Shown here one piece after another: positions 11,988-46,474 of a stretch of 64,000 bases of DNA. Positions within the stretch are counted from its first letter, which is position 1. Each line of letters opens with the position of its first letter. The stretch covers positions 4,762,857 through 4,826,856 of the forward strand of contig OY725491.1 in the NCBI GenBank assembly GCA_963281255.1. Direction: 5' to 3'. The DNA comes from Aphrocallistes beatrix. Lineage: Eukaryota; Porifera; Hexactinellida; Sceptrulophora; Aphrocallistidae. The translations under genes and the position numbers were made by a program. The notes below the pieces were generated by a model. That model did not search any database and was not told the origin of the DNA. It saw only the letters and a list, made by a program, of their open reading frames with translations.

Positions 11988-14900
11988 ATGTCTGCCCTTT
12001 CTCATCTCAAAGATTTCTCAGATGCATTGAGCATACACGACATCCAGCAACTGCATGATTCTCTATCAGTACCAGTTGGTATCTGTGATCGAGACAGTGA
12101 TGCATTACAATTTCTCTCATCTCTGAAAAGATGGAAAGAATTTGATCCATTTATTTTCCATCAATCACTGTTAGCCATCCGACCAGATTTAGTACGCATA
12201 GCGCTTACCATTAGTTGGTTGTGTGTCGATGTTGCTGGAATGCATTCTGATCGACCATTAACAGTAAAAGGCTTTGTCCAACTTTTACAATGTGGAATAT
12301 CAATTGGAAATCTGCACTTAATCCAAGCTAAATACGACTCAGAAGAGAGCGAAGTGAAGTTCGAAAACACAATGAAATTACTACTCAAAAATAATGTCAT
12401 ACAAAAAGATTTGATAGAATTGTCTCTCTTACTTATTGATGTTAAACTTGACGCAATAGCTGAGAAGCTCGATGCTTATAGTAAAGCGTTCCAAAGTATG
12501 TGCGACCATGAATTCACATCCTCATTCAAAAAAGAGGTAGCTCGCTTAGGAAAGCAAATAATAGAATGGAAACGTTACTTGAAGAAATTTCTAGAAACAC
12601 AATTTCGAAATGTGAAGCAAATGTTAGGCAACGATGATGCTGTCAGTCTCGAGAAGGTTTATGTCGATCTCACTATAGTGAAAGGGGAGCCTCGACTCGT
12701 TTCATACGATGACGAGACAACCTATAATGAGATAGCCTATCTCAGAAAGATAGCGAACAAAGAAGTCCAAATAACTCCCATAGACTTCATGGAAGAAATG
12801 AAACCATGCGTCCCGTCTAAACCTGAGATTAAATGTTTCATCGGAAACCCCGGTAGCGGAAAAACATTTCTCTGCAACAGAACGGCGCTGAGATTCGGAA
12901 ATAATGAACTTTCCGAATTCTCATACTCACTGTGCATTCCCTGCCGGGAACAAGAGTGGCACGAGATGGAGTCCTCACGAATCGAGGCAGGTCTCCCCAT
13001 TACCACCGCTTTTATCTGCGAATGGCTTCTCCTCGGTTTACCAGTCGGCCCCAGCTGGACCACAGACCTGGTTAAACACATCACAGAGACAGATGGAGAG
13101 GGACTATTACTCATTATTGACAGTCTAGACGAATTCACAAAAGATGTCCCCTTCGAGAAAACACTTCTCTACTTCCTCCTAAAAAGACAGGTCCTCACAC
13201 GGTCCTTCATCCTACTGACCAGCCGGCCTGGTGCCTGGACAGACATTTCTACTTCGCACCAGTTCCCCAACACCTCCTTCTACCATGTGCTAGGATTCTC
13301 TCCTGCACAGAGGGACATCTACTTCAAAAAACAATTCGATGATGACGCCATACAAAAGCGATGCACCCGTCTCCTCGACAGATACGATGAGATGAAGCAA
13401 CTGTCACTAATCCCAGTCAACGCATCCCTGTTCGCTAACCTCCTGAAAAGTGAAGACGGTGCTCACATCCACACCCTGACAAAGCTGTACTATGAACTGA
13501 CATTGTACCTGATTCGACGACAGCTCACACGAATGCGACTGGAAGAATTGTCGAAAGTGAGCAAATTATCCGAATTGGACAGCAACGTTTTAGAGTGTCT
13601 CCACTCAATCGGGTATATCGCGTATCAGGGCGTGGCCTTTAGGGAGATGATCTCTGACAAAAAGGTACCGTTGCGAGTTGGTAAGGTGTTAAAGTCAAGT
13701 GAGTGCCTGGGTTTAGTGCAAGAATATACAAAAGTGGGTAAAATGGGTATTTTTACGAAGGTGTGGTCATTTGCTCATTTAACAATCCAAGAGTTCATTG
13801 GTGCCATCTGGTTGAAGAGCACCAGTTGGCGTGATCAGTGTTTGTCTGTTCGTTTTATCGTGCATACGAACGACGTTTTCTCACTGTTCCGTATGTTGGT
13901 GAGATTCTTGTGCGGACTCTTATCCAACGAGTCGGTGAATGTGTACTACCTCCTCTATAAACATGTGACTCCTCGCCCTATTCCCACTCACCAACTTCCT
14001 GAGTATATCCAACTAAAATTTGAGGACCTTAATGATTTATTCCGAATCACAGGCTGGAAGGAATTTACTGAAAATTTCCTGCAACTAAGTGCAATCTTGT
14101 CAGAATCTGATTGCGATTCTATTCCTGATTACTTCCAAGTGTCCAGACGTTTTCTTCCTGACTCAGTCTGCTTCTACATTGAAAGTGCAGTGACCCCTAA
14201 CGAATGGATCTGTTTTCTCGAATCTCTCCCACGTTTCGAACACATCCACCTTATCTATGTGGAATCTCGCTACGTCACTCCGGAACAACTCTTTGATTTA
14301 TTCGAGTCTATTAACCCATGCTCTGTGAGTTGTGTAGCACTGAAGTTAGAGTGCGAATCTAACGCCGAAGTACTCGATTATACAAATGCCATCCAACGCA
14401 CTCAGTTAACTAATCACACGAAGCTAAGTTTAGAACTGTATAAGTGCAAATTAACTGATAAGGAAACAATTGAGGTTTTATCCACCCGCTCAGCCAATCA
14501 AATTCTCTCAGGACTGAGTTTAGATGATAATGAATTCTCTCGTGACACTCTCAGTCTCCTAAAAAATCAGATATCGACTTGCCATAACTTAAAGTATAGG
14601 TACATTAATTCCTCTGAGCATAAAGTTATATTTTCAGGTCTCTCCTCTGCCACACACATCAATGGGGTGCACCTTTTTCGAATTCCAACAAAATTTCACA
14701 AACAACTGTACTCTCTGCTACCTTCACTCTCTAACCTCAGAGAAATAACATGGAATGCAGATAACCCCAACTCAATACTACCTTACATAAGCCACCTCTC
14801 TACTCTCTCCTACCTGCATATGGAAGGCAAACAACATACTCCTGACATAAGCCTCTCAGACAGTCTGCTACAGCTGCTAGACTCAAACAAAAGCTCAATC

Positions 14901-15344
14901 AGAGTATTGACATTAGTTGACCTCGAGAACATTGGATTCAACCGTTTCGATGGATTTCTCAGTTGTTTGAAGTCCTGTACTAATTTAGTGAAGTTGGAAC
15001 TAGCATCTGCTCGCATAAATTGTGATGACGTCACTCTCTGGTATTCGACAGTTCACAGTCTCACCTCTTTGCTACATATGCGACTTCATTATGTCTCTAT
15101 TTCCGATTCAGAAATGTTGAGTCTATGCAAAGGTCTCCTCTTCCATCCTACCATCAAACGTTTGCTAATATCTGGATGTGGACTGAGTTCCGATTCTTGG
15201 CCTCCTCTCACAAATCTTATTCCTACTCTGAAACAGCTGAAGTTTCTCGAGCTGGATGAACTCGCCGAACCAAAACCTGAACATATGGAACTCCTAAAGT
15301 TAACAGCTGATCAGTATAGTATAGAGCATGACCTCGATTATTAG
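11988..15344 (+). CDS. NLR-type immune receptor, tandem DED-like + NACHT + LRR (NLR1)
   Basis: 1118 aa on one exon. Residues about 5-75 and 93-170 each have the helical spacing of a death-effector-like domain, with FLSSLKRW...LLAIRPDLV in the first and LLKNNVIQKDL...LLLIDVKLD in the second. A linker (LTIVKGEPRL, ETTYNEIAYLRKIA) leads to the NACHT ATPase: Walker A GNPGSGKT at 286-293, Walker B LLLIIDSLDEF with D378, D381 and E382, then sensor-like LLTSRPGAW. Winged-helix and helical regions follow, and leucine-rich repeats run from about 760 to 1110 (LREITWN, LVKLELA, LKFLELDEL). NLRs sense danger or microbial signals in the cytosol and oligomerise through NACHT to expose their death-fold domains (family knowledge). 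The ATG is the first in frame and sits behind an acceptor. A paralog lies at 42486-45959. NACHT is certain; DED assignment is from pattern only and could be another death-fold type. Confidence 0.9.
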   Translation: MSALSHLKDFSDALSIHDIQQLHDSLSVPVGICDRDSDALQFLSSLKRWKEFDPFIFHQSLLAIRPDLVRIALTISWLCVDVAGMHSDRPLTVKGFVQLLQCGISIGNLHLIQAKYDSEESEVKFENTMKLLLKNNVIQKDLIELSLLLIDVKLDAIAEKLDAYSKAFQSMCDHEFTSSFKKEVARLGKQIIEWKRYLKKFLETQFRNVKQMLGNDDAVSLEKVYVDLTIVKGEPRLVSYDDETTYNEIAYLRKIANKEVQITPIDFMEEMKPCVPSKPEIKCFIGNPGSGKTFLCNRTALRFGNNELSEFSYSLCIPCREQEWHEMESSRIEAGLPITTAFICEWLLLGLPVGPSWTTDLVKHITETDGEGLLLIIDSLDEFTKDVPFEKTLLYFLLKRQVLTRSFILLTSRPGAWTDISTSHQFPNTSFYHVLGFSPAQRDIYFKKQFDDDAIQKRCTRLLDRYDEMKQLSLIPVNASLFANLLKSEDGAHIHTLTKLYYELTLYLIRRQLTRMRLEELSKVSKLSELDSNVLECLHSIGYIAYQGVAFREMISDKKVPLRVGKVLKSSECLGLVQEYTKVGKMGIFTKVWSFAHLTIQEFIGAIWLKSTSWRDQCLSVRFIVHTNDVFSLFRMLVRFLCGLLSNESVNVYYLLYKHVTPRPIPTHQLPEYIQLKFEDLNDLFRITGWKEFTENFLQLSAILSESDCDSIPDYFQVSRRFLPDSVCFYIESAVTPNEWICFLESLPRFEHIHLIYVESRYVTPEQLFDLFESINPCSVSCVALKLECESNAEVLDYTNAIQRTQLTNHTKLSLELYKCKLTDKETIEVLSTRSANQILSGLSLDDNEFSRDTLSLLKNQISTCHNLKYRYINSSEHKVIFSGLSSATHINGVHLFRIPTKFHKQLYSLLPSLSNLREITWNADNPNSILPYISHLSTLSYLHMEGKQHTPDISLSDSLLQLLDSNKSSIRVLTLVDLENIGFNRFDGFLSCLKSCTNLVKLELASARINCDDVTLWYSTVHSLTSLLHMRLHYVSISDSEMLSLCKGLLFHPTIKRLLISGCGLSSDSWPPLTNLIPTLKQLKFLELDELAEPKPEHMELLKLTADQYSIEHDLDY

Positions 15345-17870: not shown

Positions 17871-19069
17871 CTACAGCTCGATTGTATCAATGGCCTGCAG
17901 TATCTGCTTGTTGTTTGGAATCTCTGCCACATCTTCCTCTGGCTTAATGATCTCGATAGGTGGAATTGCCTGGACAGAAGCTTCATTCAGCTGGTCATTC
18001 AATTCAGTCACCACCACGTCAAACAGTTCTTCTGGCTCCATAACGGGGGGAAATATGTCTATCTGTTCCTCCTCAGCCGAGAGCAGAGTATCTACCTCCA
18101 TCCCCTGCTAGGGCTGCCTGCTGTGGCTCAATTATCTCCCCGGCTTCAGAGAACCCGCAGTGGGCGAAGCACTTCATGATGGTTGCTGGCTTGAGGTCGC
18201 GCCAAGCTTGGAAGAGCCACACAATCACCCTTGAAATATTGATTTCCTTGTACGGGTACATTCTTTCCCCACCTTCATGCGTGAGAGTGCTGAGAATGAT
18301 GTTATGCAGCTGCTTCCGATAGAGAAGCTTTACAGTCTGGATGATACCAGCATCACATGGCTGAGTGCAATAAGTTGTGTTCTTGGGGAAGAACACAACC
18401 TTGACGGCCCTGAGTTGCATTAGTTCGACACTGTTGTGAACAGTTGCGTTGTCTTTTCTGGGATTTATAGGAAATCGCCATGTTGTCAAGATCCGCACCA
18501 CGAAGACACCTCGGCCTGACAGACTTGCCTATGATGAGGGAGGGGTTTCACTTTTTCGCCCATTCAAGAGCAGCATATGAGTAGGGTGATTCGCTCCTTC
18601 TGAGCCTTACCGCCATGACAGGAATCACCGGGCATTACCAGCGAAAGTGATGTGGACTGTTTGTAGTAAAGACCAGTTTCATCACAATTAAAAACATCTT
18701 TCTGGTTGTAACCTTCGATCAGTTCTGGGATCTGTTTCATCCAGTTTGTCACTACTACCTTGTTGACCGATGCCGCCTCGCCACTGAGTTGCCTTCCGCG
18801 AATCCCATGGCGTCTCTTCACACGATCAAGCCAACCTTCAGAGGCAGAGAACCCTTGGATGTTGCGGTTCTCAGCCTCGCGCAGAGCAAGAGTGCGCAGC
18901 ATTGGGCCTATTACCGGGATTCCATGCTCTTTGGCTCTCTCAAGAAAAAGCACGCATGCATTCTCGATCTCACAGTACTTTGGCGTTATGTCTACAAGTT
19001 TTCTCTTCTTGAGGTTGTTCGGAATGTTTCCCTGAACGTCCTTGAGATTCTCGATCTTGTCACGCTGAT
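17871..19069 (-). pseudogene. pogo/Tigger transposase, catalytic part (broken)
   Basis: Minus-strand coding for most of a CENP-B/pogo-type transposase: the second helix-turn-helix region (FSASEGWLDRVKRRHGIRG), first catalytic Asp in NCDETGLYYK, then after a frame change a KDNATVH block (second Asp) and QPCDAGII (third Asp), giving the DDD pattern of this family. A further frame change near 18100 leads to an acidic tail ending at 17871. The N-terminal part lies at 21267-21409, beyond an inserted 2.2 kb element. Frameshifts near 18500-18560 and 18100 plus the insertion make it dead. Such enzymes cut and paste at TA sites, so an intact relative could mobilise the CAGT MITEs in this window (inference). 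Confidence 0.85.
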
Positions 19070-19693
19070 CATGGCTTACTATATATACGGCTAGCTAAGC
19101 AAAGAATTGCCAAAATAATTTCCAGGCCATTGATTATATTCTGTTTGATCATGAATAATTGCAGATATCATTACAAATTCAAGTGTAAATAGGTTTTCAC
19201 ATACGACGGAAACATCTAGAATATTTTTGAGAATGATTTCTCACTAAATTTAACCACTATGACGCAGCAAAAAATAAGATCCATATATGGTAATTGTACT
19301 AATTTTAGATGCATTTAACTCAATTTTTCCTGCGATTTAACAAGAAAATGTATCTCTATTAACATTCTACTTAATATAAGCTAGTAAATACTCATAAAAA
19401 TCGTTTTATGATCACACAACATCGTTATGACTTAGCTCTATATTTTGTTGATATCAAACCACAAGTTTAAGAATTTGATGAATGAATAAATAGATAAAAT
19501 TCTTTTTACAATCATAATACACTTCTAAACCTATATTCTACGTTTTACTATAATATATTATCCGTACAACCCCATGACTAACCTAGTTAAAGGTTCTCAC
19601 AACTTATGTTATAAATTTAGGGTTAATATATAGCTTATCTTATGCAGAATTTACTATTTAGCATTCAATTCTCAATTAGAAATCACATTATTG

Positions 19694-23321: not shown

Positions 23322-24881
23322 TCTTATATATTAAAATGCTAAGATTTTTTTGTTTTGTCCGAATTGATTGAAGAATTGGGAAGTTATAGAGATGTGAAAA
23401 TTGGCATGTAGGTGTCAAATGATATGGCTACGATTAATTTCTTTTAAGCGAAATTTTCACACCTTTTCTATACTACAAGCACGCTTCGCTTGCTTGCGCT
23501 GCGCGGCTTGCGGACACTGCGGGCGCCTGTAGTTACTCAATCTAACATATTTTGGGAATTTTTCCTTTATATAAATATCGTAAACAAAGGTCAACGAATA
23601 ATTTCTCATATGGATCCGAAAATATAATATTCGAAATCTAGAGCACTAAAAATCCCATGTCAACCGTTGGAAGCTAGTCTCTAACCCATTTTTGTAATTT
23701 GTATACTTTATGTATCTATTTTTAAAAAAGTAAACAAATTGATCGTCAAATTTACTCGAAAATATGATATTCGAAATCTACGCCCCTGAAAACCCCATGT
23801 CAACCGTTGGAAGCTAGTCTCTAGCCTATTTTTGTAATTTGTTTACTTTATGTATCTATTGTAAACAAAAGTAAACAAAGAATTTATCATATAGATCTGA
23901 AAATATGATATTCGAAATCTACACCCCTGAAAACCCCATGTCACCCGTTGGAAGCTAGTCTCTAGCATTATTTTCAAAATTCATCAAATGGTGTGAAAAT
24001 ATGTATATAAAGGTGTGAAAATATGCACATAATCTTTTTTTTATAGCCATACACTATAATACATTTAAGATATCAAACATAAGTTGTGGTTTTGAAGTAT
24101 TAATAACAATGACGATCTATTTATTGTAGTGTCGTACTTGTACAATGATTTCTATTGTGATAGTGTAGTCATATATTTTGTATAGAAAAGGTGTGAAAAA
24201 TTGTTTTCCATTTTTTTTGCAGAGGTGTGAAAATTTCGCTTAGCTTTTCGAACTTAATCCTAGATTCATCATTTGACACCTACATGCCAATTTTCGTATT
24301 TCTACGACTTGCCAATTCTTCAATCAATTCGGACAAACAAACAAACAAAAAATCCTAGCATTTTAATATATAAGATGTATGGCTTCATCCTCACAATAGA
24401 AATCATTGTACGAAATTATTATAGGCTGTCATTGTTTTTAATACTTCAGATGTCTCAATTATACTTAGTGTATAGCAATAGAAAAGGTTATGTATATATT
24501 TTCACACCTTTATATACATATTTTAACACTATTTGACGAATTTTGAAAATTATGATAGAGACTAGCTTCCAATGGTTGACATGGGGTTTTAGGGGTGTAG
24601 ATTTCGAATGTCATATTTTCAGATCAATATGATAAATTATTTGTTTACATTTGTTTATATTAGATACATAAAGTAAACAAATCTCAAAAATATGCTAGAA
24701 ACTTGCTTTCAACGGTTAACATGGGGTTTTCAGGGGTGTAGATATCGAATATCATATTTTCAGTACTATATGAGAAATTATTTGTTAACTTTTGTTTACA
24801 ATATTTATATAAATTACCAATTTCCCAAAATAGGCTAGATTGAGTAACTCCAAGCGCCCGCAAGCAAGCGAAGCGCACTTG
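23322..24881 (+). mobile_element. Helitron-like family B host copy (split by a second B)
   Basis: Head 23322-23475 (TCTTATATATTAAAATGC after an A, then GAATTGATTGAAGAATTGG) and body/tail 24376-24881 ending CACTTG before T. The two parts are separated by the nested minus-strand B at 23476-24375. Rejoined flanks match the uninterrupted sequence near 30750-30790. Its tail has lost part of the GC-rich block. Confidence 0.75.
23476..24375 (-). mobile_element. Helitron-like family B nested copy
   Basis: 900 bp, inserted in the other B. Own-strand start TCTTATATATTAAAATGC, own-strand end GCGTGCTTG. Host bases on the two sides are A and T with no duplication. It contains three tandem copies of a roughly 150-bp unit with GATATTCGAAATCTA and CCCATGTCAACCGTTGGAAG. 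No coding. Confidence 0.8.
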
Positions 24882-26653: not shown

Positions 26654-27570
26654 TCTTATATATTAAAATGCTAGGATTTGTTTTTTTGTTTGTTTGTTTG
26701 TTCGAATTGATTGAAGATTTGGCAAGTCGTAGAGATACGAAAATTGGCATGTAGGTTTCAAATGATGAATCTACGATTAAGTTCTAAGATCTAAGCGAAA
26801 TTTTCACACCTCTGCAAAAAAAATGGAAAACAATTTTTCACACCTTTTCTATACTAAATAAATGACCTACACTATCACAATAGAAATCATTGTACAAGTA
26901 CGACACTACAATAAATAGATCGTCATTGTTAAAAATACTTCAAAGCAACTTATGTTTGATATCTTAAATGTATTATAGTGTATGGCAATAAAAAAGATTA
27001 TGTGCATATTTTCACACCTTTATATACATATTTCCATTTGATGAATTTTGAAAATAATGCTAGAGACTAGCTTCCAACGGGTGACATGGGGTTTTCAGGG
27101 GTGTAGATTTCGAATATCATATTTTCAGATCTATATGATAAATTCTTTGTTTACTTTTGTTTACAATAGATACATAAAGTAAACAAATCTCAAAAAACCG
27201 CTGGAAACTTGCTTTCAACGGTTGATATGGGGTTTTCAGGGGTGTAGATTTCGAATATCATATTTTCGAGTAAATTTGACGATCAATTTGTTTACTTTTT
27301 TAAAAATAGATACATAAAGTATACAAATTACAAAAATGGGTTAGAGACTAGCTTCCAACGGTTGACATGGGATTTTCAGTTCTCTAGATTTCGAATATTA
27401 TATTTTCGGATCCATATTAGAAATTATTCGTTGACCTTTGTTTACGATATTTATATAAAGGAAAAATTCCCAAAATATGTTAGATTGAGTAATTCCAGGC
27501 GCCCGCAGGGCGACTCTGCGGACACACAGTGTCCGCAAGCCGCGCAGCGCAAGCAAGCGAAGCGTGCTTG
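26654..27570 (+). mobile_element. Helitron-like family B, full-length copy
   Basis: 917 bp. TCTTATATATTAAAATGC after an A at the left; (GTTT)n, GAATTGATTGAAGA, repeated CATGGGGTTTTCAGGGGTGT units, then the GC-rich tail ending GCGTGCTTG at 27570. No coding. A second B starts at the next base. Confidence 0.8.
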
Positions 27571-28465
27571 TTATATATTAAAATGCTAGGATTTGTTTGT
27601 TTGTTTGTTTGTTTGTTCGAATTGATTGAAGAATTGGCAAGTCGTAGAGATACGAAAATTGGCATGTAGGTTTCAAATGATGAATCTACGATTAAGTTCT
27701 AAGATCTAAGCGAAATTTTCACACCACTGCAAAAAAAATGGAAAACAATTTTTCACACCTTTTCTATACTAAATAAATGACCTACACTATCACAATAGAA
27801 ATCATTATACAAGTACAACACTACAATATATCGTCATTGTTATTAATACTTCAAAGCCACAACTTATGTTTGATCGCTTAAATGTATTATAGTGTATGGC
27901 AATAAAAAAATTATCTATATATTTTCACACCTTTATATACATATTTTCACACCATTTGATGAATTTTGAAAATAATGCTAGAGACTAGCTTCCAACGGCT
28001 GACATGGGGTTTTCAGGGATGTAGATTTCGAATATCATATTTGTTTACTTTTGTTCACAATAGATACATAAAGTAAACTAATTGCAAAAATATGCTAGAA
28101 ACTTGCTTTCAACGGTTGACATGGGGTTTTCAGGGGTGTGGATTTCGAATATCATATTTTCAGATTTATGTGATAAATTATTTGTTTACTTTTGTTTACA
28201 TTAGATACATAAAGTAAACAAATCTTAAAAATATGCCAGAAACTTGCTTTAAACGGTTGACATGGGGTTTTCAGGGGTGTAGATTTCGAATATCATATTT
28301 TCAGATCCATATGAGAAATTATTTGTCGACCTTTGTTTACAATAGTTATATAAAGGAAAAAATTCCAAAATATGTTAGATTGAGTGACTCCAGGCGCCCG
28401 CAGGGCGACTCTGCGGACACGCAGTGTCCGTAAGCCGCGCAGCGCAAGCAAGCGAAGCGTGCTTG
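27571..28465 (+). mobile_element. Helitron-like family B, second copy in head-to-tail tandem
   Basis: 895 bp following the previous copy without spacer. Its head reads TTATATATTAAAATGC and lacks the initial TC. Tail ends GCGTGCTTG at 28465 before T. Same tandem internal units. Confidence 0.8.
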
Positions 28466-29022
28466 TTGAATACTAAATATGAATTGTCAGTCCGGGGTCA
28501 AACAACTTCGACAATTAAAAGTATAAAAATCGAGGATGTCAAATGATTGATAGAATCTAATTTTCCATGAAAAATTAGTCTCCCAGACAATTTTTTCTGA
28601 AAGAAATGGTCCCCGGACCAATATTCCCTGAAAGAAATGGTCCCCCCGGACCAATATTCCCTGAAAAAAATGGTCCCCCCGGATCAATTTTCCCTGAAAA
28701 AAATGGTCCCCCCCAGGACCAATTTTCCATGAAAAAAATGGTCCCCCCGGACCAATTATTCCTGAAAAAGTGGTCCCCCCCAGGACCAATTTTCCCTGAA
28801 AAAAATGGTCCCCCCGGACCAATTTTCCATGAAAAAAATGGTCCCCCCGGACCAATTTTCCCTGAAAAAAATGGTCCCCCCCCAGGACCAATTTTCCATG
28901 AAAAAAATGGTCCCCCCCGGACCAATTTTCCCTGAAAAAAATGGTCCCCCCCGGACCAATTTTCCATGAAAAAAATGGTCCCCCCGGACCAAAAAAATTC
29001 CATGGAAAATTGGTCCATAATA

Positions 29023-30390
29023 CAGTCTGTTTCATAATTATTTCCAATTTTTGAGGTGATTTTGAATGACCATAACTTACTATGAAATCTGTTAGGCAGT
29101 ACTTCAATGCAATTTTTCTCAACTATACACTCATCCTAACGATTTCTATTGATACCTTTCCAACTCTTTGATACTCAACTTTTTTATTTTTAATTTTTTC
29201 ACTTCCGGCGGGCTTTTTTCTCTTTTTGGTCTCGAAGTTAATTCTGACAAGCTAGTTAAGGCAATTCAACTAATTTTCAGCGAATAATGCAGAAACAACG
29301 TAGAGAAGACGTGGCTAAGCTCATTAAAACTTCAAAACTTCCAATGAAGGACATTGCTCCTATGTGCGGTGTCACCCTGAAGACGGCCTATAATGTTAAG
29401 CAACGAATTTCAGCGGGCGAAAGCATTGAGCACAGGGGTGGAGCTGGGCCTAAAAGGTGCCTCAACAGAGGAGACAGGATCTCACTCTCTCTAAATATTA
29501 AAAACAATCCCCGAATTTCTTTGCGGACTATGCAGAGTAGTCTAAAGGTTTCACGAGGCGTTGATGTGTCGTATTCAACGGTGAGGAGATGCATCAAAGA
29601 GATGTCCTATTCCAAGAAAACTGCAATCAAAGGACCAAATATTACTCCCTCCCATGAAGCATTGAGAGTTTTATGGGCTAAGAAACACAAGTTCATCAAT
29701 TGGAACAAGATCTTCTTTACCGATGAGTGTTCCATTTGGCTTTGTGGCGGGAAAGTACAGATGTGGACCAAGGGTACTCAAAAGCCCGTCATCAACATTC
29801 CGAGACATTCACCCAAGATCCATATTTGGGGAGGGATATCTACTCGAGGAACTACTCCTGTGCATATTTTTAGAGAGAATTTCAATTCTATCGCATATTG
29901 TAATGTGATAAATGAATGTTTGACAGAGACAGCAGACCTACTCTACCCAGACGGTTGGAAACTCCAGGAGGATAATTCGAGCATTCATAAATCCAAGCTC
30001 TCTGTCTCATACAAAGAGGAACGCGCCATTAGATGTATAGATTGGCCATCCTGCAGCCCTGATTTGAATCCTATAGAGAATTTATGGGCTGTTCTGAAGA
30101 AAAGGATTCTAAACAGGGCTCCTAAGACGATTGAAGATGTAAAAAACTATGTAGATATAGAGTGGGGAACCTTTGATCCTGAATTCATTGGCAACTTCAC
30201 AAAATCTATGCGTAAGCGGTGCGACCTTGTGATAGCTGCTCAAGGCAAAAAGATTAACTATTAAACCATATCCTATTTAATTGTTACTAAGGGGCCATAG
30301 AACCAAAATAAAACTTGAATGAGTACATATCGACTTGAGTTTTCAAGTTGCATTGGGTATAATAATTGTAAATAATTATGAAACAGACTG
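29023..30390 (+). mobile_element. Tc1-like transposon, apparently intact
   Basis: 1368 bp with inverted ends CAGTCTGTTTCATAATTATT (left) and AATAATTATGAAACAGACTG (right) and a TA on both sides (29021-29022, 30391-30392). One full transposase ORF fills the middle. Identical outer 20 bases and the clean TA duplication suggest a recent insertion. Confidence 0.92.
29287..30264 (+). CDS. Tc1-like transposase (DD34E)
   Basis: 325 aa, uninterrupted. Two N-terminal helix-turn-helix regions (about 1-40 with MKDIAPMCGVTLKTAYNVK, and 75-110) bind the inverted ends. The catalytic triad is D146 (FFTDECS), D229 (LQEDNSS) and E264 (SPDLNPIENLW); 34 residues separate the last two, the DD34E spacing of the Tc1 family. 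WGGIS lies between. The second block reads EDNSSIH rather than the common QDNAPCH, but both acidic residues are kept. The enzyme excises and reinserts the element at TA. Length is normal for the family (about 340 aa). Confidence 0.93.
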   Translation: MQKQRREDVAKLIKTSKLPMKDIAPMCGVTLKTAYNVKQRISAGESIEHRGGAGPKRCLNRGDRISLSLNIKNNPRISLRTMQSSLKVSRGVDVSYSTVRRCIKEMSYSKKTAIKGPNITPSHEALRVLWAKKHKFINWNKIFFTDECSIWLCGGKVQMWTKGTQKPVINIPRHSPKIHIWGGISTRGTTPVHIFRENFNSIAYCNVINECLTETADLLYPDGWKLQEDNSSIHKSKLSVSYKEERAIRCIDWPSCSPDLNPIENLWAVLKKRILNRAPKTIEDVKNYVDIEWGTFDPEFIGNFTKSMRKRCDLVIAAQGKKINY

Positions 30391-30562: not shown

Positions 30563-31621
30563 TCTTATATATTAAAATGCTAGGATTTGTTTGTTTGTTT
30601 GTTTGTCCGAATTGATTGAAGAATTGGCAAGTCGTAGAGATACGAAAATTGGCATGTAGGTATCAAATGATGAATCTAGGATTAAGTTCGAAAAGCTAAG
30701 CGAAATTTTCACACCTCTGCAAAAAAAATGGAAAACAATTTTTCACACCTTTTCTATACAATACTATGTACGGCTTCACTCTCACAATAGATATCATTAT
30801 AATACACTATTGTTGGCTGTCATTGTTATTAATACTTCAAAGCAATAACTTATATAAATGTATCAATTATATATTATAGTGTATGGCAGTAAAAAAGGTT
30901 ATTTGCATATTTTCACACTTTTATATACATATTTTCACACGATTTGACGAATTTTGAAAATTATGCTAGAGACTAGCTTCCAACGGTTGACAAGGGGTTT
31001 TTAGGGGTGTAGATTTCGAATATCATATTTTCAGATCGATATGATAAATTATTTGTTTACTTTTGTTTACAATAGATACATAATGTAAACAAATGACAAA
31101 ATTAAGCGATAAACTAGCTTCCAACGGTTGACAAGGGGTTTTTAGGGGTGTAGATTTCGAATATCACATTTTCAGATCGATATGATGAATTATTTGTTTA
31201 CTTTGGTTTACAATAGATACATAATGTAAACAAATGACAAAATTAAGCGATAAACTAGCTTCCAAAGGTCGACATGGGATTTTAGGGGTGTAGATTTCGA
31301 ATATCATATTTTCAGATCTATATGATAAATTATTTGTTTACTTTTGTTTACAATAGATACATAAAGTAAACAAATTACAAAAATAGGCTAGAGACTTGCT
31401 TCCAACGGTTGACATGGGGTTTTCAGGGGTGTAGATTTCGAATATCATATTTTCGGATCCATTTGAAAAATTATTCGTTGACCTTTTGTTTACAATATAT
31501 ATATATAAAGGAAAAAAATCCAAAAATAGTTCAGATTGAGTAACGCCAGGCGCCCGCAGGGCGACTCTGCGGACACAAAGTGTCCGCAAGCCGCGCAGCG
31601 TAAGCAAGCGAAGCGTGCTTG
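30563..31621 (+). mobile_element. Helitron-like family B, long copy
   Basis: 1059 bp. TCTTATATATTAAAATGC after an A, tail ending GCGTGCTTG before T. It has more internal units than the other copies: the block with AGATTTCGAATATCA and AACTAGCTTCCAACGG occurs four times at about 120-150 bp spacing, which accounts for the extra length. Confidence 0.8.
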
Positions 31622-37366: not shown

Positions 37367-37637
37367 AATTAGACTATGCATAAATTGTTGATGCAATGTT
37401 GATAGCCTTGGCAGTTATACTCGTAGCATCGAGTTCCTTTTATATAAGGCCGCTGTCCATTATAATTACCGCCAGGAGCATAATCACACATAATGATTGT
37501 TCCATTGCCTCAACATACAGTTTGGTCCTTTTTCGCACATCCGACTTCGATTGTTGTTGCCCAAACTATTTGAGTATAGTTACCACAAACTTTCTTCCAG
37601 GTATTTTGGTTGTAGTTATAGAATTGTTCTTCATCGA
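37367..37637 (-). pseudogene. CAP-domain protein, C-terminal part (cut off, with stop)
   Basis: On the minus strand the sequence directly behind element C encodes VDEEQFYNYN, KKVCGNYTQIVWATT, VGCAKKDQTVC, then an in-frame TGA near 37509, then GNGTIIMCDYAPGGNYNGQRPY. These are the CAP signature blocks (GHYTQxVW and CxYxPxGN). It continues the reading frame of the N-terminal part at 38372-38711. The insertion and the stop show the gene is dead, unless an unseen splice removes them. Confidence 0.8.
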
Positions 37638-38371
37638 CCTGTCACGAAAATTTTGGTCCGGGGGACCAATTTTTTCATGAAAAATTGGTCCTCCCCTGAA
37701 AATTTTGGTCCTACTATGGACCAATTTCCATGGAATTTTGGTCCGGGGGGGACCATTTTTTTCAGGGAATATTGGTCCGGGGGACCATTTTTTTCAGGGA
37801 ATATTGGTCCTGGGGGACCATTTTTTTCAGGGAATATTGGTCCTGGGACCATTTCTTTCAGGGAATATTGGTCCTGGGACCATTTCTTTCAGAAAAAATT
37901 GTCTGGGAGACTTATTCTTTCATGGAAAATTAGATTCTATCAATCATTTGACATCCTCGATTTTTTGATACTTTTCAATTGTCTAACAACCAAGCTGTTT
38001 GACCCGGGACTGACAATTCATATTTTAGTATTCGATACATATTTAGCTAATCTCTAATCTAAGAAGTGTATTTTATTTCTTCTGCTCTCTAAAATCTGAA
38101 CTCTCTTCCTATTGAGTACCTATTTATTCCAACTATAATAACGTTATGGCGGACCAAAATTCCTTATGGAAAATTGGTCCCCCGGACCAAAATTCCCTGA
38201 AAAAAATGGTTCCCCGGACCAATTTTCCCTGAAAAAAATGGTCCCCCCGGACCAAAATTCTATGGAAAATTGGTCCATGTAGGACCAAAACTTTCAGGGG
38301 AGGACCAATTTTCCCTGAAAAAATTGGTCCCCCGGACCAAAATTTTCGCGGACCATTTTTCCAGTGACAGG
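37638..38371. mobile_element. Palindromic minisatellite element C, complete copy inside the CAP gene
   Basis: 734 bp. Ends CCTGTCAC and GTGACAGG are inverted. Each arm holds repeats of GGACCAATTTTCCCTGAAA-type units that are palindromic (left arm 37650-37895, right arm 38145-38360); the centre of about 250 bp is unique. The same centre is at 28466-28600. No transposase and no clear target duplication seen. Confidence 0.75.
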
Positions 38372-38711
38372 CCCATGAATTAATAGCTTGTGTGTAATTA
38401 GTCAAATTACTACTTCCAAGATACATATTTTCGCCCACATAAGCTGGTGAAATGTTTGTCAGACAGCCCTTTTCCTGAGCATCCCTGGTTCTATTTGGAT
38501 TATGCTTAAATCCAGGACAGGAAACAAGATAATCACTTTCCACACTCGCTAGACAATCGCTCCTATCAAGTGCGATCATGTTAGAAGCTGTTGGGGATAC
38601 GGAACCTCTTATTTTATTATGAAGATAAATAATTTCGTTTGCATCAGGATTGGTGCGTCCATATATGATAGAAACAAAAAGTAGAAATATGTTCGATAGT
38701 GCCAATTTCAT
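38372..38711 (-). pseudogene. CAP-domain (SCP/CRISP) secreted protein, N-terminal part
   Basis: Starts MKLALSNIFLLFVSIIYG, a signal peptide of about 18 residues, then CAP blocks: IIYLHNKIRGSVSPTASNM, GENMYLGSSNLTNYTQAINSW. Cysteine-rich as expected for an extracellular CAP protein. Coding breaks off at the codons after INSW where element C begins (38371) and resumes at 37637. CAP proteins are secreted and varied in role; no specific function can be given. Confidence 0.8.
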
Positions 38712-38840
38712 TAGGATTTTCGAAGAAGGATTACAGTTGTGATTTACTCAAAGTAGATCAATTTATATTCTCCAAATATATTGTGAAGTTTTAGAGGTTC
38801 TCAAATGAATTTATACTTTTTTGACTATTATGAATTAGTA

Positions 38841-42485: not shown

Positions 42486-45400
42486 TCAAATCTCAAAAAA
42501 AAGAATCTCCAAATCCTCCTGATTTGTAACTTCAAGAGTTACAGAATATTGCTTAGCTGTTTGCTCAAGAAGTAGGAAGGGTTCAGGATTTGGTTTATAA
42601 ATGTTATTATCTTCCAGGTTTAGTCTCTTCAGCTGTAGTAGAGTCGGTATGAGGTGTGTGAGAGGATCGCAAAAGTTGGAATTGAGGTCACACAACCTTA
42701 GTCCTAAGTACTGGATAGTAGGATGGTAGATGAGTCCTTCAAACATATAAAACAACACAATTTCATCTATTGGAACAAAATATAAATCCAAATAGACCAA
42801 AGATCTGAGTCTATTCACTGCTGTACTGAGGAGAGCGACATCATCCTGTTGTAGTAGTAGAGCGTTGCTTAGTTGAATAAGTACTAAGTTGGTACATGTG
42901 CTTATTGAGCTGAAGAATTCATCCCAACGAGTTAGTACAACTATGTCTAAATTAGATAACTCCAATCCTCTCAGAGTGTGTTTGTTAGTATTCAGGACTC
43001 GTAGTAGATCTTCATCTACGGTGGCCTCAGGTGCCAAGACGGAGGGCTCTAGATGTAGGTATGTAAGCCCGGATAGATTGCAGAGGTGAGGTAGTTGTGA
43101 GTGTGTATCTCCTCTATTCAATGTTATCTCCTGTAGATTGGAGAGTAGAGGGAGTAGTGTTTGTAATTTCCGTTCATATCCTTTAATACCATAGAGATGT
43201 AGACCGGTGAGCTGTGTAGCATCAGGGACGATATAATTGGTACGGCTGGACCACTTTTTTAGTTTTTGAAAGAACTTCTTTGGTTGTTCCTGTTCAGGGA
43301 TGAGAAGTGGAATCAAAGTTTGATATTCTTTGGAGTCTCTGGGATGAAAGTACAAGTTATCAGTGGACTTTAATTGATTCCCTATTTGCTGAAGAAAATC
43401 AGGCTGGAATTGAGCATTATAGAAACACAAACTCGTGGATAGTTTGAGGATTTGAAGATTGGACAAATAGTCACTGCCTGAGAGGTTACACAGTTCAAGT
43501 TTCAAACTAAGCTTAGTTCCAGGAGGTAGCTGAATCTCTTCCAGGACTTCATTGTAAGAAAGGAGAGTGAATGAACCTATAACACCAAACCTCACTGCTA
43601 AGTAGCTTAGGGAACAAGGGTGCAGATGCTCCAGTAATGATCTGAACTGAGACAGAGAGAAGTATCGTATATCGAAATATATTAGTTGTATGGAACGGAG
43701 GAGACGTAGTGACTTTAAGAAACACTTCCACTCGTTAGGAGATATGGAATCATCCAAATAGAAGTATAGCGACTCAGGAAGGAAACGATGAAATTTCAAA
43801 AATGATTTTAAAACCGATTTGGAGTCGCATTCAAAAAGCATTTCAGACAAAACTAAGAAATCTCGAGTAAATTCTTTACAGCCCGAATATTCGAGAAATT
43901 TGTAATCTTCGTGAGGATAGTTGAGTTGCCATACCATTGGCATCTGGATCATATCAACTGTCTTCGTTGGAAGGAATTTGTACAGGATGGAGAGAATCAG
44001 GTCTGCATCGTCGGACAATAAACCACACACAAACCTCACCACCATTTTAAACACTGAAAAGTTGTCATCGGAGTTGACAATGTAGCGAGTGCTTAGGCAT
44101 TGGTCCCTCCATGAACAATTGCGCAACCAGTTGGCACCGACAAACTCTTGAATGGTCAGGTGGGAAAAACACCACACACGGACCACTTTGCCATGAGGGA
44201 GCTTCTTGATGTGCTCTTCTGCCAGGCCCAAGCACTGGCATGCCTGATCTACTCCGTCCACGTTAAGGAGGATGTCCTTCGTGGAGGTCAGTTCTCGGCT
44301 GGACACTCCGAGATAGGCTACCTCGCCGATGCGATGCAGACAATCCACTACATTTGGATGCATTTGGGGAAACAACTGTTTCTTGGCCAGGTGCTTCAAG
44401 TTCATTCTTGAGAGTTGTCGCCTGATGAGGTAGCTGATCAACTCTGTGTATAGGAGTGTGAGGGTGAATGCGCTCACATGATCATTTTCACGAACAAGAG
44501 CTGCGAATAATGACGCGTTTACTGGCACGAGAGAGAGCTGGTTTATATCATCGTGGAGGTGGATTAAATATTTCAACTGATCCAGTTTCTCCTGTTCTGG
44601 TAGTTGGATGCGGAAGTAGAGGTCTCGGTTCTCTGGAGAGAATCCGAGGACCTGATAAAAGCGGTCAATGTTGAGTTTGAAGTTGGAAGAAATGTTTGTA
44701 TAAGCACCTGGACGGCTCGTCACGAGGATGGTAGAGGATTTTAGGACTTTTCTCGTGAGGAGAAGGAAGAAGAGAGTTCGTTCGAAGGGGACTTCTTTGG
44801 TGTACTCGTCTAGACTATCAATGATAATGAGAAGTCCTTCACCGTCTGACTCGACGAGATGCTTCGCAAGGTCGGAACGCCAGCTGGCATCGACTGGCAT
44901 GGATAAGCAGAGCCAGTTTTGGATGAATTCCTTATTGATGCCAACAGACACTTTCTTACTCTGCTCCATTTGGTGCCATTCTCCGTTCCGACAGGGAATG
45001 GAAACAGCGAAGGAGAATTGAGGAAGTTTGCTTTGGCCGAAAAGAAGGCCTATTCTATGGCAAAGAAATGTCTTGCCGCAGCCAGGATTCCCGATGAGGC
45101 ACCAAATTTCAGGATTTGAGGGAAAATATTCGTGTAATTCGTTGTCGAAATCGACAGGTGTGATGTGGATTTGTTTGCTGGCTATTTTACGCATAAATTC
45201 GATTTCATTGTAGGTGGTCTCGTCCTCTGGATTCACTAATCTTGGCTCTTCTTTGATAATCGTCAGAGGAACGAATACCGATTCGAGATCCACCTTTTCT
45301 TCGTCATCTAGCATTTGTTGCACTTTCTTATTCTGAAGCTCTAGGTATTTCATGAGGAAAACATTCCATTTACAAATACCTTTCTCCATGGAGTTGATAT

Positions 45401-45959
45401 GTTTTTCAAAGTTGGATGCCAAATCTGGAATTCCTGAAAACACCTGTCGGTATTGTTGCACGGATGTTGCAATGTCGTTTCGTTCGATTATTGTCAATAG
45501 TTGAGTCAACTTTGAGAGATCTGAAGCGATGTAACCCTCTTGAAGCAGTGATTTCAATTTGGCATCAAAAGTCATGGAAGCATCAATCTTCTCGTTAACG
45601 AGGTAAATTCCATGCCAATCTTCGCTACTCAGTGTATCTTTCAATTCTTTTACGAGCTTTTTAACTGAAAATTCCTTTTCGGGCACAGTTCGTTTAACTG
45701 GACATTCTGAAGCCAACCAGGGATACTGTTCAGCTTTTTCTAGGAGATCGGCGCGACCAATCTCTTGCAAGCCTTGGTAAAAAACATTTGGATTGTGTTC
45801 CCCCCACTTTCGCAATGTCGACAAGAGATTCACTCCGCTTGTTATCTTTTCGCCGAGGCCAGAAGGAATGTTGAGGAGGTTTACGAGTTTTTGGACGTCT
45901 GAACGTGATAATTGTTTGCCCAAGTAAATAAGGTCCAATTTGGATCTGTCGTCTGACAT
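42486..45959 (-). CDS. NLR-type immune receptor, tandem DED-like + NACHT + LRR (NLR2)
   Basis: 1157 aa, one exon, paralog of NLR1. The ATG at 45959 follows TTTTTTGTTTAG and a few bases, so an acceptor lies just upstream and the 5' UTR is probably spliced; the open frame extends 6 codons further, but across that acceptor. Residues about 5-75 (LIYLGKQLSRSDVQKL...LLSTLRKW...LQEIGRADLLEKA) and 93-170 (LKDTLSSEDW...LLQEGYIASDL...LLTIIERNDIA) look like two death-effector domains. Walker A GNPGCGKT is at 290-297, Walker B LLIIIDSLDEY with D381, D384, E385, then LVTSRPGAY. LRR-like repeats fill about 780-1130 (LTGLHLYGI, LQEITLNRG, LTYLHLEPS, LKRLNLEDNNI). Cytosolic sensor by family knowledge. No stop or frameshift: likely functional. 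Confidence 0.9.
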   Translation of the reverse strand: MSDDRSKLDLIYLGKQLSRSDVQKLVNLLNIPSGLGEKITSGVNLLSTLRKWGEHNPNVFYQGLQEIGRADLLEKAEQYPWLASECPVKRTVPEKEFSVKKLVKELKDTLSSEDWHGIYLVNEKIDASMTFDAKLKSLLQEGYIASDLSKLTQLLTIIERNDIATSVQQYRQVFSGIPDLASNFEKHINSMEKGICKWNVFLMKYLELQNKKVQQMLDDEEKVDLESVFVPLTIIKEEPRLVNPEDETTYNEIEFMRKIASKQIHITPVDFDNELHEYFPSNPEIWCLIGNPGCGKTFLCHRIGLLFGQSKLPQFSFAVSIPCRNGEWHQMEQSKKVSVGINKEFIQNWLCLSMPVDASWRSDLAKHLVESDGEGLLIIIDSLDEYTKEVPFERTLFFLLLTRKVLKSSTILVTSRPGAYTNISSNFKLNIDRFYQVLGFSPENRDLYFRIQLPEQEKLDQLKYLIHLHDDINQLSLVPVNASLFAALVRENDHVSAFTLTLLYTELISYLIRRQLSRMNLKHLAKKQLFPQMHPNVVDCLHRIGEVAYLGVSSRELTSTKDILLNVDGVDQACQCLGLAEEHIKKLPHGKVVRVWCFSHLTIQEFVGANWLRNCSWRDQCLSTRYIVNSDDNFSVFKMVVRFVCGLLSDDADLILSILYKFLPTKTVDMIQMPMVWQLNYPHEDYKFLEYSGCKEFTRDFLVLSEMLFECDSKSVLKSFLKFHRFLPESLYFYLDDSISPNEWKCFLKSLRLLRSIQLIYFDIRYFSLSQFRSLLEHLHPCSLSYLAVRFGVIGSFTLLSYNEVLEEIQLPPGTKLSLKLELCNLSGSDYLSNLQILKLSTSLCFYNAQFQPDFLQQIGNQLKSTDNLYFHPRDSKEYQTLIPLLIPEQEQPKKFFQKLKKWSSRTNYIVPDATQLTGLHLYGIKGYERKLQTLLPLLSNLQEITLNRGDTHSQLPHLCNLSGLTYLHLEPSVLAPEATVDEDLLRVLNTNKHTLRGLELSNLDIVVLTRWDEFFSSISTCTNLVLIQLSNALLLQQDDVALLSTAVNRLRSLVYLDLYFVPIDEIVLFYMFEGLIYHPTIQYLGLRLCDLNSNFCDPLTHLIPTLLQLKRLNLEDNNIYKPNPEPFLLLEQTAKQYSVTLEVTNQEDLEILFFEI

Positions 45960-46474
45960 TTTCCAAAATCTAAACAAAAAATAAACAAATAAATAAGCAA
46001 ATTCGGACGGAAATTGAATAGAATCTAGATTTGAATATTCGAATTAATCGCATTTCGAGAATTTAAATATTTTCAGTATTTAATTAAATTATCCAAATGC
46101 GAGGGTAGGTATGGCTCAGGGTTCGACCAACGACGCATACGGAACAGACATGTAAGATTCTAGTGAGACATATAAAGTTGAAGGTGCTAACAGGAAATAA
46201 AAGGTACTGATGCAGAATTAAATATGGTGCTAGTATAGGTCATATAGTTTGCTAGTGAGACATATCGAGTATTAGTATGCTATGCCACTGACGTACAGTA
46301 TAAGATATAATCTAAAATGGTAGTGCCTAGCTTTTCACTTTGAATCTCGACTATTCGAAGTTGCAACATACTTGCCAACTATCTCGTTTTTAGTGGGACA
46401 TTATTACAATGAGAAAGACAAGGAAACTAGCTCAGAATTTGAGATTTTCAAAAGGGTAATACATCCAATGGAAT
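45960..46474. other. NLR2 5' flank, no gene seen
   Basis: The acceptor-like TTTATTTTTTGTTTAG (minus strand) stands at about 45968-45985. At 46150-46290 loose GCTAGTGAGACATAT-like units recall the tandem array at 47.9 kb. No other feature. Confidence 0.4.

Follow-up and report, generated by a model that had tools for sequence, protein, structure and literature searches.

Nested insertion and element borders

At positions 23322 to 24881 of the window, the 64,000-nucleotide stretch of the Aphrocallistes beatrix genome analyzed here, one copy of a repeat that we call B lies in reverse orientation within another. This arrangement raises the questions of where the element begins and ends, what class of transposon it represents, and which protein could mobilize it. 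A textbook Helitron has a CTRR 3′ end with a hairpin 10 to 12 nt upstream of that end. The initial annotation had proposed Helitron-like behavior for B, with CTTG in place of CTRR and a terminal hairpin that includes the end itself. The relevant features of the window are as follows.

23322..24881, plus strand: outer B copy, an interrupted non-autonomous Helitron, with A|TC at 23322 and CTTG|T at 24881
23476..24375, minus strand: inner B copy, inside the outer copy, bordered A|TC...CTTG|T without target duplication
23476..23495, minus strand: right end of the inner copy, with the 3′ terminal palindrome AAGCAAGCGAAGCGTGCTTG and half of the upstream hairpin lost
24356..24375, minus strand: left end of the inner copy, with the 5′ end TCTTATATATTAAAATGCTA
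26654..27570, plus strand: B copy, first member of a head-to-tail pair
27571..28465, plus strand: B copy, second member of the head-to-tail pair, beginning TTATATATT
30563..31621, plus strand: uninterrupted B copy with an intact upstream hairpin (TGCGGACAC-AAA-GTGTCCGCA) and the empty-site equivalent A30766|T30767

The outer copy begins A|TCTTATATATTAAAATGC and terminates in GCACTTG followed by T, and the reverse complement of the 900-bp inner copy reads TCTTATATATTAAAATGC...GCGTGCTTG, with A before it and T after it in its own orientation. The flanks of the inner copy (...TTTTCTATACTA | TGTATGGCTTCATCC...) correspond to ...TTTTCTATACAATACTATGTACGGCTTCACTC... at the same place in the uninterrupted copy, with which they are collinear except for a 5-nt indel and a few substitutions; the empty site falls between A30766 and T30767, and zero bases were duplicated by the inner insertion. 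The initial annotation had described a minus-strand B within a plus-strand B, joined flanks collinear with an uninterrupted B, and an insert that starts with TC after A, ends with CTTG before T, and made no target duplication; the nesting is correct to the base, and the empty-site comparison bears out the rest. Chance similarity is not an issue here, because both ends are far more frequent in the window than shuffled sequence predicts: allowing up to 3 mismatches, there are 6 instances of the 20-nt 5′ end (0.04 expected) and 14 of a 15-nt 3′ end (0.89 expected).

Open reading frames around the nested insertion encode NACHT, TRAF zinc finger, THAP, C2H2, Tc1-like, and Tc5-like domains, a set that by itself would suggest an animal genome. 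The two large NACHT-domain frames lie at 11988 to 15344 and 42486 to 46043, one of them with a death-effector match just below the Pfam cutoff, and short repeats such as GGACCAAATTTTC in Gly/Phe-rich open frames were seen by eye at 28487 to 29135, 37497 to 38057, and 38133 to 38747.

B copies across the genome

We searched the A. beatrix genome (100.5 Mb in 28 contigs) with the inner copy as the query. Because 40 of 3832 candidates were scored, the counts are lower bounds: at least 79 matching stretches, at least 41 other places matched over at least 800 of the 900 bases, and at least 28 places matching all 900 bases, at 88 to 94% identity. For the analysis of borders we used 31 clean copies, comprising 28 of 38 fetched loci together with 3 window copies; the 10 loci left out are tandem, truncated, or complex and include two (L045 and L060) in which the 5′ end follows another tail, with G before TC. 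All 31 clean copies start with TC, end with CTTG, and have A before and T after, so the borders proposed from the nested insert hold throughout this set. Identical flanks of 2, 4, 6, and 8 bp were found in 16, 6, 3, and 2 of the 31 copies, compared with 15.7, 3.0, 0.8, and 0.5 expected from re-pairing, and identical flanks of 1, 5, or 7 bp in none; we attribute the slight excess at even lengths to copies within TA- or AAT-repeats. No target duplication of constant length was present among the 31 copies. Across the whole genome, 4414 of 4494 occurrences of the exact right end AAGCAAGCGAAGCGYGCTTG have T as the next base (80 have another base) and 732 of 756 occurrences of the exact left end TCTTATATATTAAAAYGCTAGG have A as the preceding base (24 have another base); the reversed control patterns gave 0 matches. 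G accounts for 19 of the 24 non-A bases, and 16 of those 19 are head-to-tail junctions.

The presence in the window of a Tc1-like frame (29260 to 30264) and a Tc5/pogo-like frame (18073 to 19094) could suggest that B is a cut-and-paste (DDE) non-autonomous element whose target duplications have decayed. We consider this extremely unlikely, given that a constant-length duplication is absent both from the 31 copies and from the nested empty site, that T follows nearly every exact tail, and that no terminal inverted repeat is apparent by eye in the ends read. Of the two outcomes that the initial annotation named as refuting, neither a constant target duplication nor a DDE partner sharing the ends came to light in the copies and elements analyzed.

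Autonomous elements with the same ends

The Helitron_like_N domain (PF14214) has 106 matches in the A. beatrix genome and 0 in 14 control genomes. One autonomous element, on the minus strand of contig C7 (523431 down to 513922; 9510 bp), has the ends of B. It starts A|TCTTATATATTAAAACTC, read further as A|TCTTATATATTAAAACTCTAGG, matches B positions 1 to 29 and 24 to 154 at 93% and 95%, and finishes with ...GCAAGCAAGCGAAGCGCACTTG, the same CTTG-terminated tail as B; the TC of another element, 618 bp long, directly adjoins its right end. Its single open frame of 1947 amino acids matches 6 Pfam families, with Helitron_like_N, PIF1, Pif1 2B, and OTU domains. A 1389-amino-acid part of this frame aligns with residues 15 to 1383 of Helraiser (PDB 7LCC; 1036 bits), including the HUH region (GLPHAHILII) and both catalytic tyrosines (YLYKYVYKG in the C7 protein, YLFKYIYKG in Helraiser); the available text of PMC5876387 describes Y731 of Helraiser as a required residue. 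A Rep/helicase protein in an element sharing the ends of B, for which the initial annotation had advised a search, is therefore encoded in this genome, which makes B a non-autonomous Helitron with a candidate mover.

Elements at 4.5 Mb on C2 (1970-amino-acid frame) and 2.03 Mb on C11 (1531-amino-acid frame) also have a B-like left end, 92 to 95% alike over about B positions 24 to 154, and the autonomous left end differs slightly from that of B (AAAACTCTAGG versus AAAATGCTAGG). A second intact frame, of 1959 amino acids, lies at C2:3996331 with the same tail downstream of it, which ends at L071:5164; the left end of this element was not found. Two further features of the C7 frame (G000:C7:513922-523431) are a repetitive N terminus, with 23-residue units such as EKAERLEAQVEYQTAYREMQSSQ recognized by eye, and the fusion of a C-terminal OTU-type domain to the RepHel. 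Near the right ends of the autonomous copies at C7:513 kb, C2:4.00 Mb, and C2:4.50 Mb (L069, L071, and L074) there are two to three tail-like sequences about 100 to 145 bp apart, with the match of the inner ones to the B tail stopping at position 890 or 897 (of 900), which gives them the look of older terminators that had been bypassed.

These elements share with canonical Helitrons (Helitron1) a RepHel with an HUH motif, two tyrosines, and a Pif1 helicase, a 5′ TC in all 31 clean copies and in the autonomous C7 copy, and insertion at A|T without duplication. They depart from them in the 3′ end, which is CTTG and not CTRR in all 31 copies, and in having, instead of a hairpin at 10 to 12 nt, a 9-bp hairpin at 33 nt and a palindrome abutting the end. 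Since Helitrons with CTTG ends have been published (described in the accessible text of PMC4289320), we do not take CTTG as excluding the canonical class. A Helentron/Helitron2-type element, defined by asymmetric terminal inverted repeats, a T|T target, and an AP endonuclease, might be suspected from the OTU domain, which is reported to be frequent in Helentrons (PMC5148889, in the part available), and from central repeats of about 140 bp that by eye recall DINE-1/HINE elements. This assignment is nevertheless very unlikely, as the target is A|T and not T|T in 31 of 31 copies, the 5′ end is TC, the Pfam search of the 1947-amino-acid frame matched no AP endonuclease domain fused to the RepHel and no endonuclease among its 6 families, and the match to Helraiser is full length.

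Structure of the right end

Many tails contain a 9-bp hairpin 33 nt before the 3′ end, usually in the form GGCGGACAC-AAA-GTGTCCGCC or TGCGGACAC-NNN-GTGTCCGCA. We examined 39 chromosome 1 tails (of 40 fetched regions, one was too short), which were taken from the exact matches irrespective of hairpins. A perfect stem of at least 7 bp lies in the region from −80 to −25 in 19 of them, and one of at least 8 bp in 17; a stem of at least 7 bp occurs in 2 of 195 shuffled sequences. In 132 in-register tails, the set remaining after 26 out-of-register tails had been removed from 158, 84.8% of hairpin cells are Watson-Crick paired; sliding the register by 1 or 2 gives 17 to 36%. T-A forms the outer pair in 61 tails and G-C in 50, a double change common to subfamilies, and the remaining double changes comprise 7 cells in five pairs. 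Because the slid control also contains double changes (7 of 9 pairs with any, versus 6 of 9 in the hairpin), it is the outer pair and the pairing rate that carry the argument for the hairpin, and the double changes, mostly at this one outer pair, may reflect a single inherited event.

Downstream of the hairpin, a GC-rich palindrome (AGCCGCGCAGCGCAAGCAAGCGAAGCGCGCTTG) runs into CTTG. For the last 21 nt alone, the predicted folds both include the end and consist of CAAGCA/TGCTTG in the T form and CAAGCG/CGCTTG in the C form, and in longer context 6 of 8 tails are predicted to form a larger imperfect hairpin that leaves CTTG partly or wholly free. Because the tails of the covariation set were collected by their last 20 nt, conservation of the pairs in the terminal palindrome is built into that set. 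The C/T change in GCG[C/T]GCTTG could be taken for a switch that preserves the fold, but a CpG transition is the same change. Its mirror image, GCGCACTTG, occurs less often (141 versus 427), which fits propagation of the T by subfamilies and is no proof of a structural role.

Neither the inner nor the outer nested copy has an intact upstream hairpin, whereas the uninterrupted copy at 30563 to 31621 does; the nested copies either moved without it or lost it later. The loss in both may explain why the initial annotation saw a terminal hairpin only. Its statement that the hairpin includes the end stands insofar as the predicted terminal palindrome covers CTTG, but it missed the additional hairpin that many tails carry 33 nt upstream; similarly, CTTG in place of CTRR holds for all 31 clean copies but is not novel, CTTG ends being reported in the accessible parts of PMC4289320 and PMC4778049. 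The combination of a 33-nt hairpin spacing and a palindrome running into the end was not found on a Helraiser-type element in the literature searched, and neither was a description of a Helitron palindrome that includes the end (Repbase and many subscription papers lay outside this search).

Target preference

Insertion sites share features beyond A|T. The 3′ flank is AT-rich from +2 to +12 (9.6 of 11 positions, versus 7.1 at A|T sites of the window), and A occupies position +10 in 77 of 95 flanks of a first set (109 flanks, from which 14 tandem-like ones were dropped) and in 26 of 38 flanks of a second, later-fetched set (from 40 regions). The control rate of A at this position is 33% at all A|T sites of the window and 51% at equally AT-rich ones, against which the second set alone gives binomial P values of 0.00001 and 0.024, respectively. 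The preference for A at +10 is well supported as a tendency and less so as a strict rule. AT-rich DNA, most of all on the 3′ side, is also preferred by Helraiser according to the accessible text of PMC4778049, in which we found no mention of A at +10.

Head-to-tail junctions

The pair at 26654 to 28465 of the window belongs to a larger class of head-to-tail arrangements; at its junction, two bases of TCTTATATATT are absent, so that the copy at 27571 starts with TTATATATT. Genome-wide there are 41 CTTG|TC junctions with up to 2 mismatches (21 without mismatch), and junctions with a TA spacer are nearly as numerous (37 with up to 2 mismatches). A tail directly precedes 16 of the 756 exact left borders. 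Spreading the 4494 exact tails over the roughly 19.8 million oriented A|T sites of the genome, a total scaled up from the window, predicts about 0.17 such cases; this figure is an underestimate, since decayed tails do not enter it. A scan of distances gave 55 matches, of which 49 have at most 10 nt between CTTG and ATTAAAA, with 13 at the exact border spacing and 11 at +2 by hand count. At 12 of 55 junctions, the downstream element starts with TTATATATT or TATATATT right after CTTG, as if 2 to 3 bases were missing.

The abundance of these junctions and their excess at exact left borders would also be expected if head-to-tail pairs were rolling-circle concatemers of one copy and not serial insertions, and comparison of 40 junctions with one another gives 31 pairs that agree by at least 90% on each side, with some family pairings recurring. 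We regard concatemers as unlikely, however: in 3 tested pairs the two copies are 88.8, 92.1, and 85.5% alike, against a median of 92.0% for random copies, and each has a closer relative elsewhere; the upstream partner is 66 to 95% like B in the 40 fetched junctions and so belongs to several families; and the element next to the right end of the autonomous C7 copy is 618 bp long. Two junction pairs (L157/L158 and L189/L190) are at least 98% alike, and a few junctions may therefore be copies of one event. Overall, the junctions fit repeated insertion at the A|TC border of a resident element more than they fit concatemers, and it seems that later insertions are concentrated at resident 5′ borders as hot spots. 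For a maize pair, the available text of PMC2267711 puts forward two explanations, one of them being insertion at the A|T of the left border of the resident element.

Target mimicry by the left end was rejected as the full cause of the hot spot, since the left end stands at the 86.8th percentile of A|T sites in the window, a rank too modest to account for an excess of about 90-fold; regional clustering may contribute. Head-to-head junctions at the same A|T number 0, versus 41 head-to-tail, an absence that we do not treat as proof because by rough reckoning few would be expected, given the smaller number of such left ends and an oriented target.

Proposed mechanism and significance

We conclude with high confidence that the B repeats are non-autonomous, canonical Helraiser-like Helitrons, probably moved by the RepHel of the approximately 9.5-kb elements that have the same ends; the Helitron-like behavior first proposed for the nested copy is strengthened by this partner. 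Its candidacy as the mover follows from the shared ends, read in the light of Helraiser work, and the published work on Helraiser likewise suggests the order of events. The RepHel would nick the A|TC border at the B left end, peel off one strand, and stop and nick after CTTG, near the 33-nt upstream hairpin, which would serve as terminator, and the GC-rich terminal palindrome. The single strand would then be joined, probably via a circle, to an A|T site before an AT-rich tract, without duplication. The inner copy would represent one such insertion into an older copy.

A more speculative reading joins the right end to the hot spot. Its first element, a redesigned terminator (hairpin at 33 nt, CTTG within an alternating palindrome) coupled to use of the A|TC border as a landing site, is tentative at best. 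Two competing folds, one hiding CTTG and one mostly freeing it, might be part of such a design, a doubtful proposition for now. It is conceivable, though unlikely, that an A|TC border nicked by the transposase draws other copies and so gives rise to head-to-tail arrays.

A. beatrix, whose 100-Mb genome contains more than 4,400 exact right ends together with intact RepHel frames, offers a clean natural data set on how Helitron right ends are defined. How far Helitrons depend on CTRR and on a hairpin spacing of 11 nt matters for read-through gene capture, and Helitron-finding software keyed to these two features would probably miss the B family.

Comparison with known systems

The closest resemblance is to Helraiser/Helibat of Myotis, as described in the available text of PMC4778049 and PMC5876387: both systems have a RepHel with HUH and two tyrosines, a TC left end that is AT-rich, an A|T target without duplication, an AT-rich preference strongest on the 3′ side, and head-to-tail junctions. 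They differ at the right end, where Helraiser has CTAG and a hairpin 11 nt upstream and B has CTTG, a hairpin at 33 nt, and a palindrome reaching the end, and in the protein, since the A. beatrix RepHel, unlike Helraiser, has an OTU domain and a repetitive N terminus. By its description in the accessible part of PMC4289320, the fungal element HELPO2 of Pleurotus ostreatus has an AT target, a CTTG 3′ end, and a subterminal hairpin, and CTTG ends are also mentioned in PMC4778049, in the part available, for maize and for events made with altered right ends. Helentron, Helitron2, and DINE-1 elements, to the extent covered by the available text of PMC5148889, PMC4067079, and PMC9741609, are alike in that some of them have an OTU domain and central repeats, but they have T|T or T-rich targets and asymmetric or subterminal inverted repeats, and Helentrons have an AP endonuclease, whereas the A. 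beatrix frame has no match to this domain and the target here is A|T. Head-to-tail Helitrons of maize have a comparable CTAG|TC junction without the host A; the accessible portion of PMC2267711 presents one pair and cites bat cases, compared with the 41 junctions (up to 2 mismatches) found here, in which partners are mixed among those read. CTTG right ends, head-to-tail junctions, OTU domains, and AT-rich targeting are thus already in print in these sources as far as they were accessible. The B family is a Helitron variant whose odd part is its 3′ end, in which a hairpin at 33 nt is combined with a palindrome that runs into CTTG.
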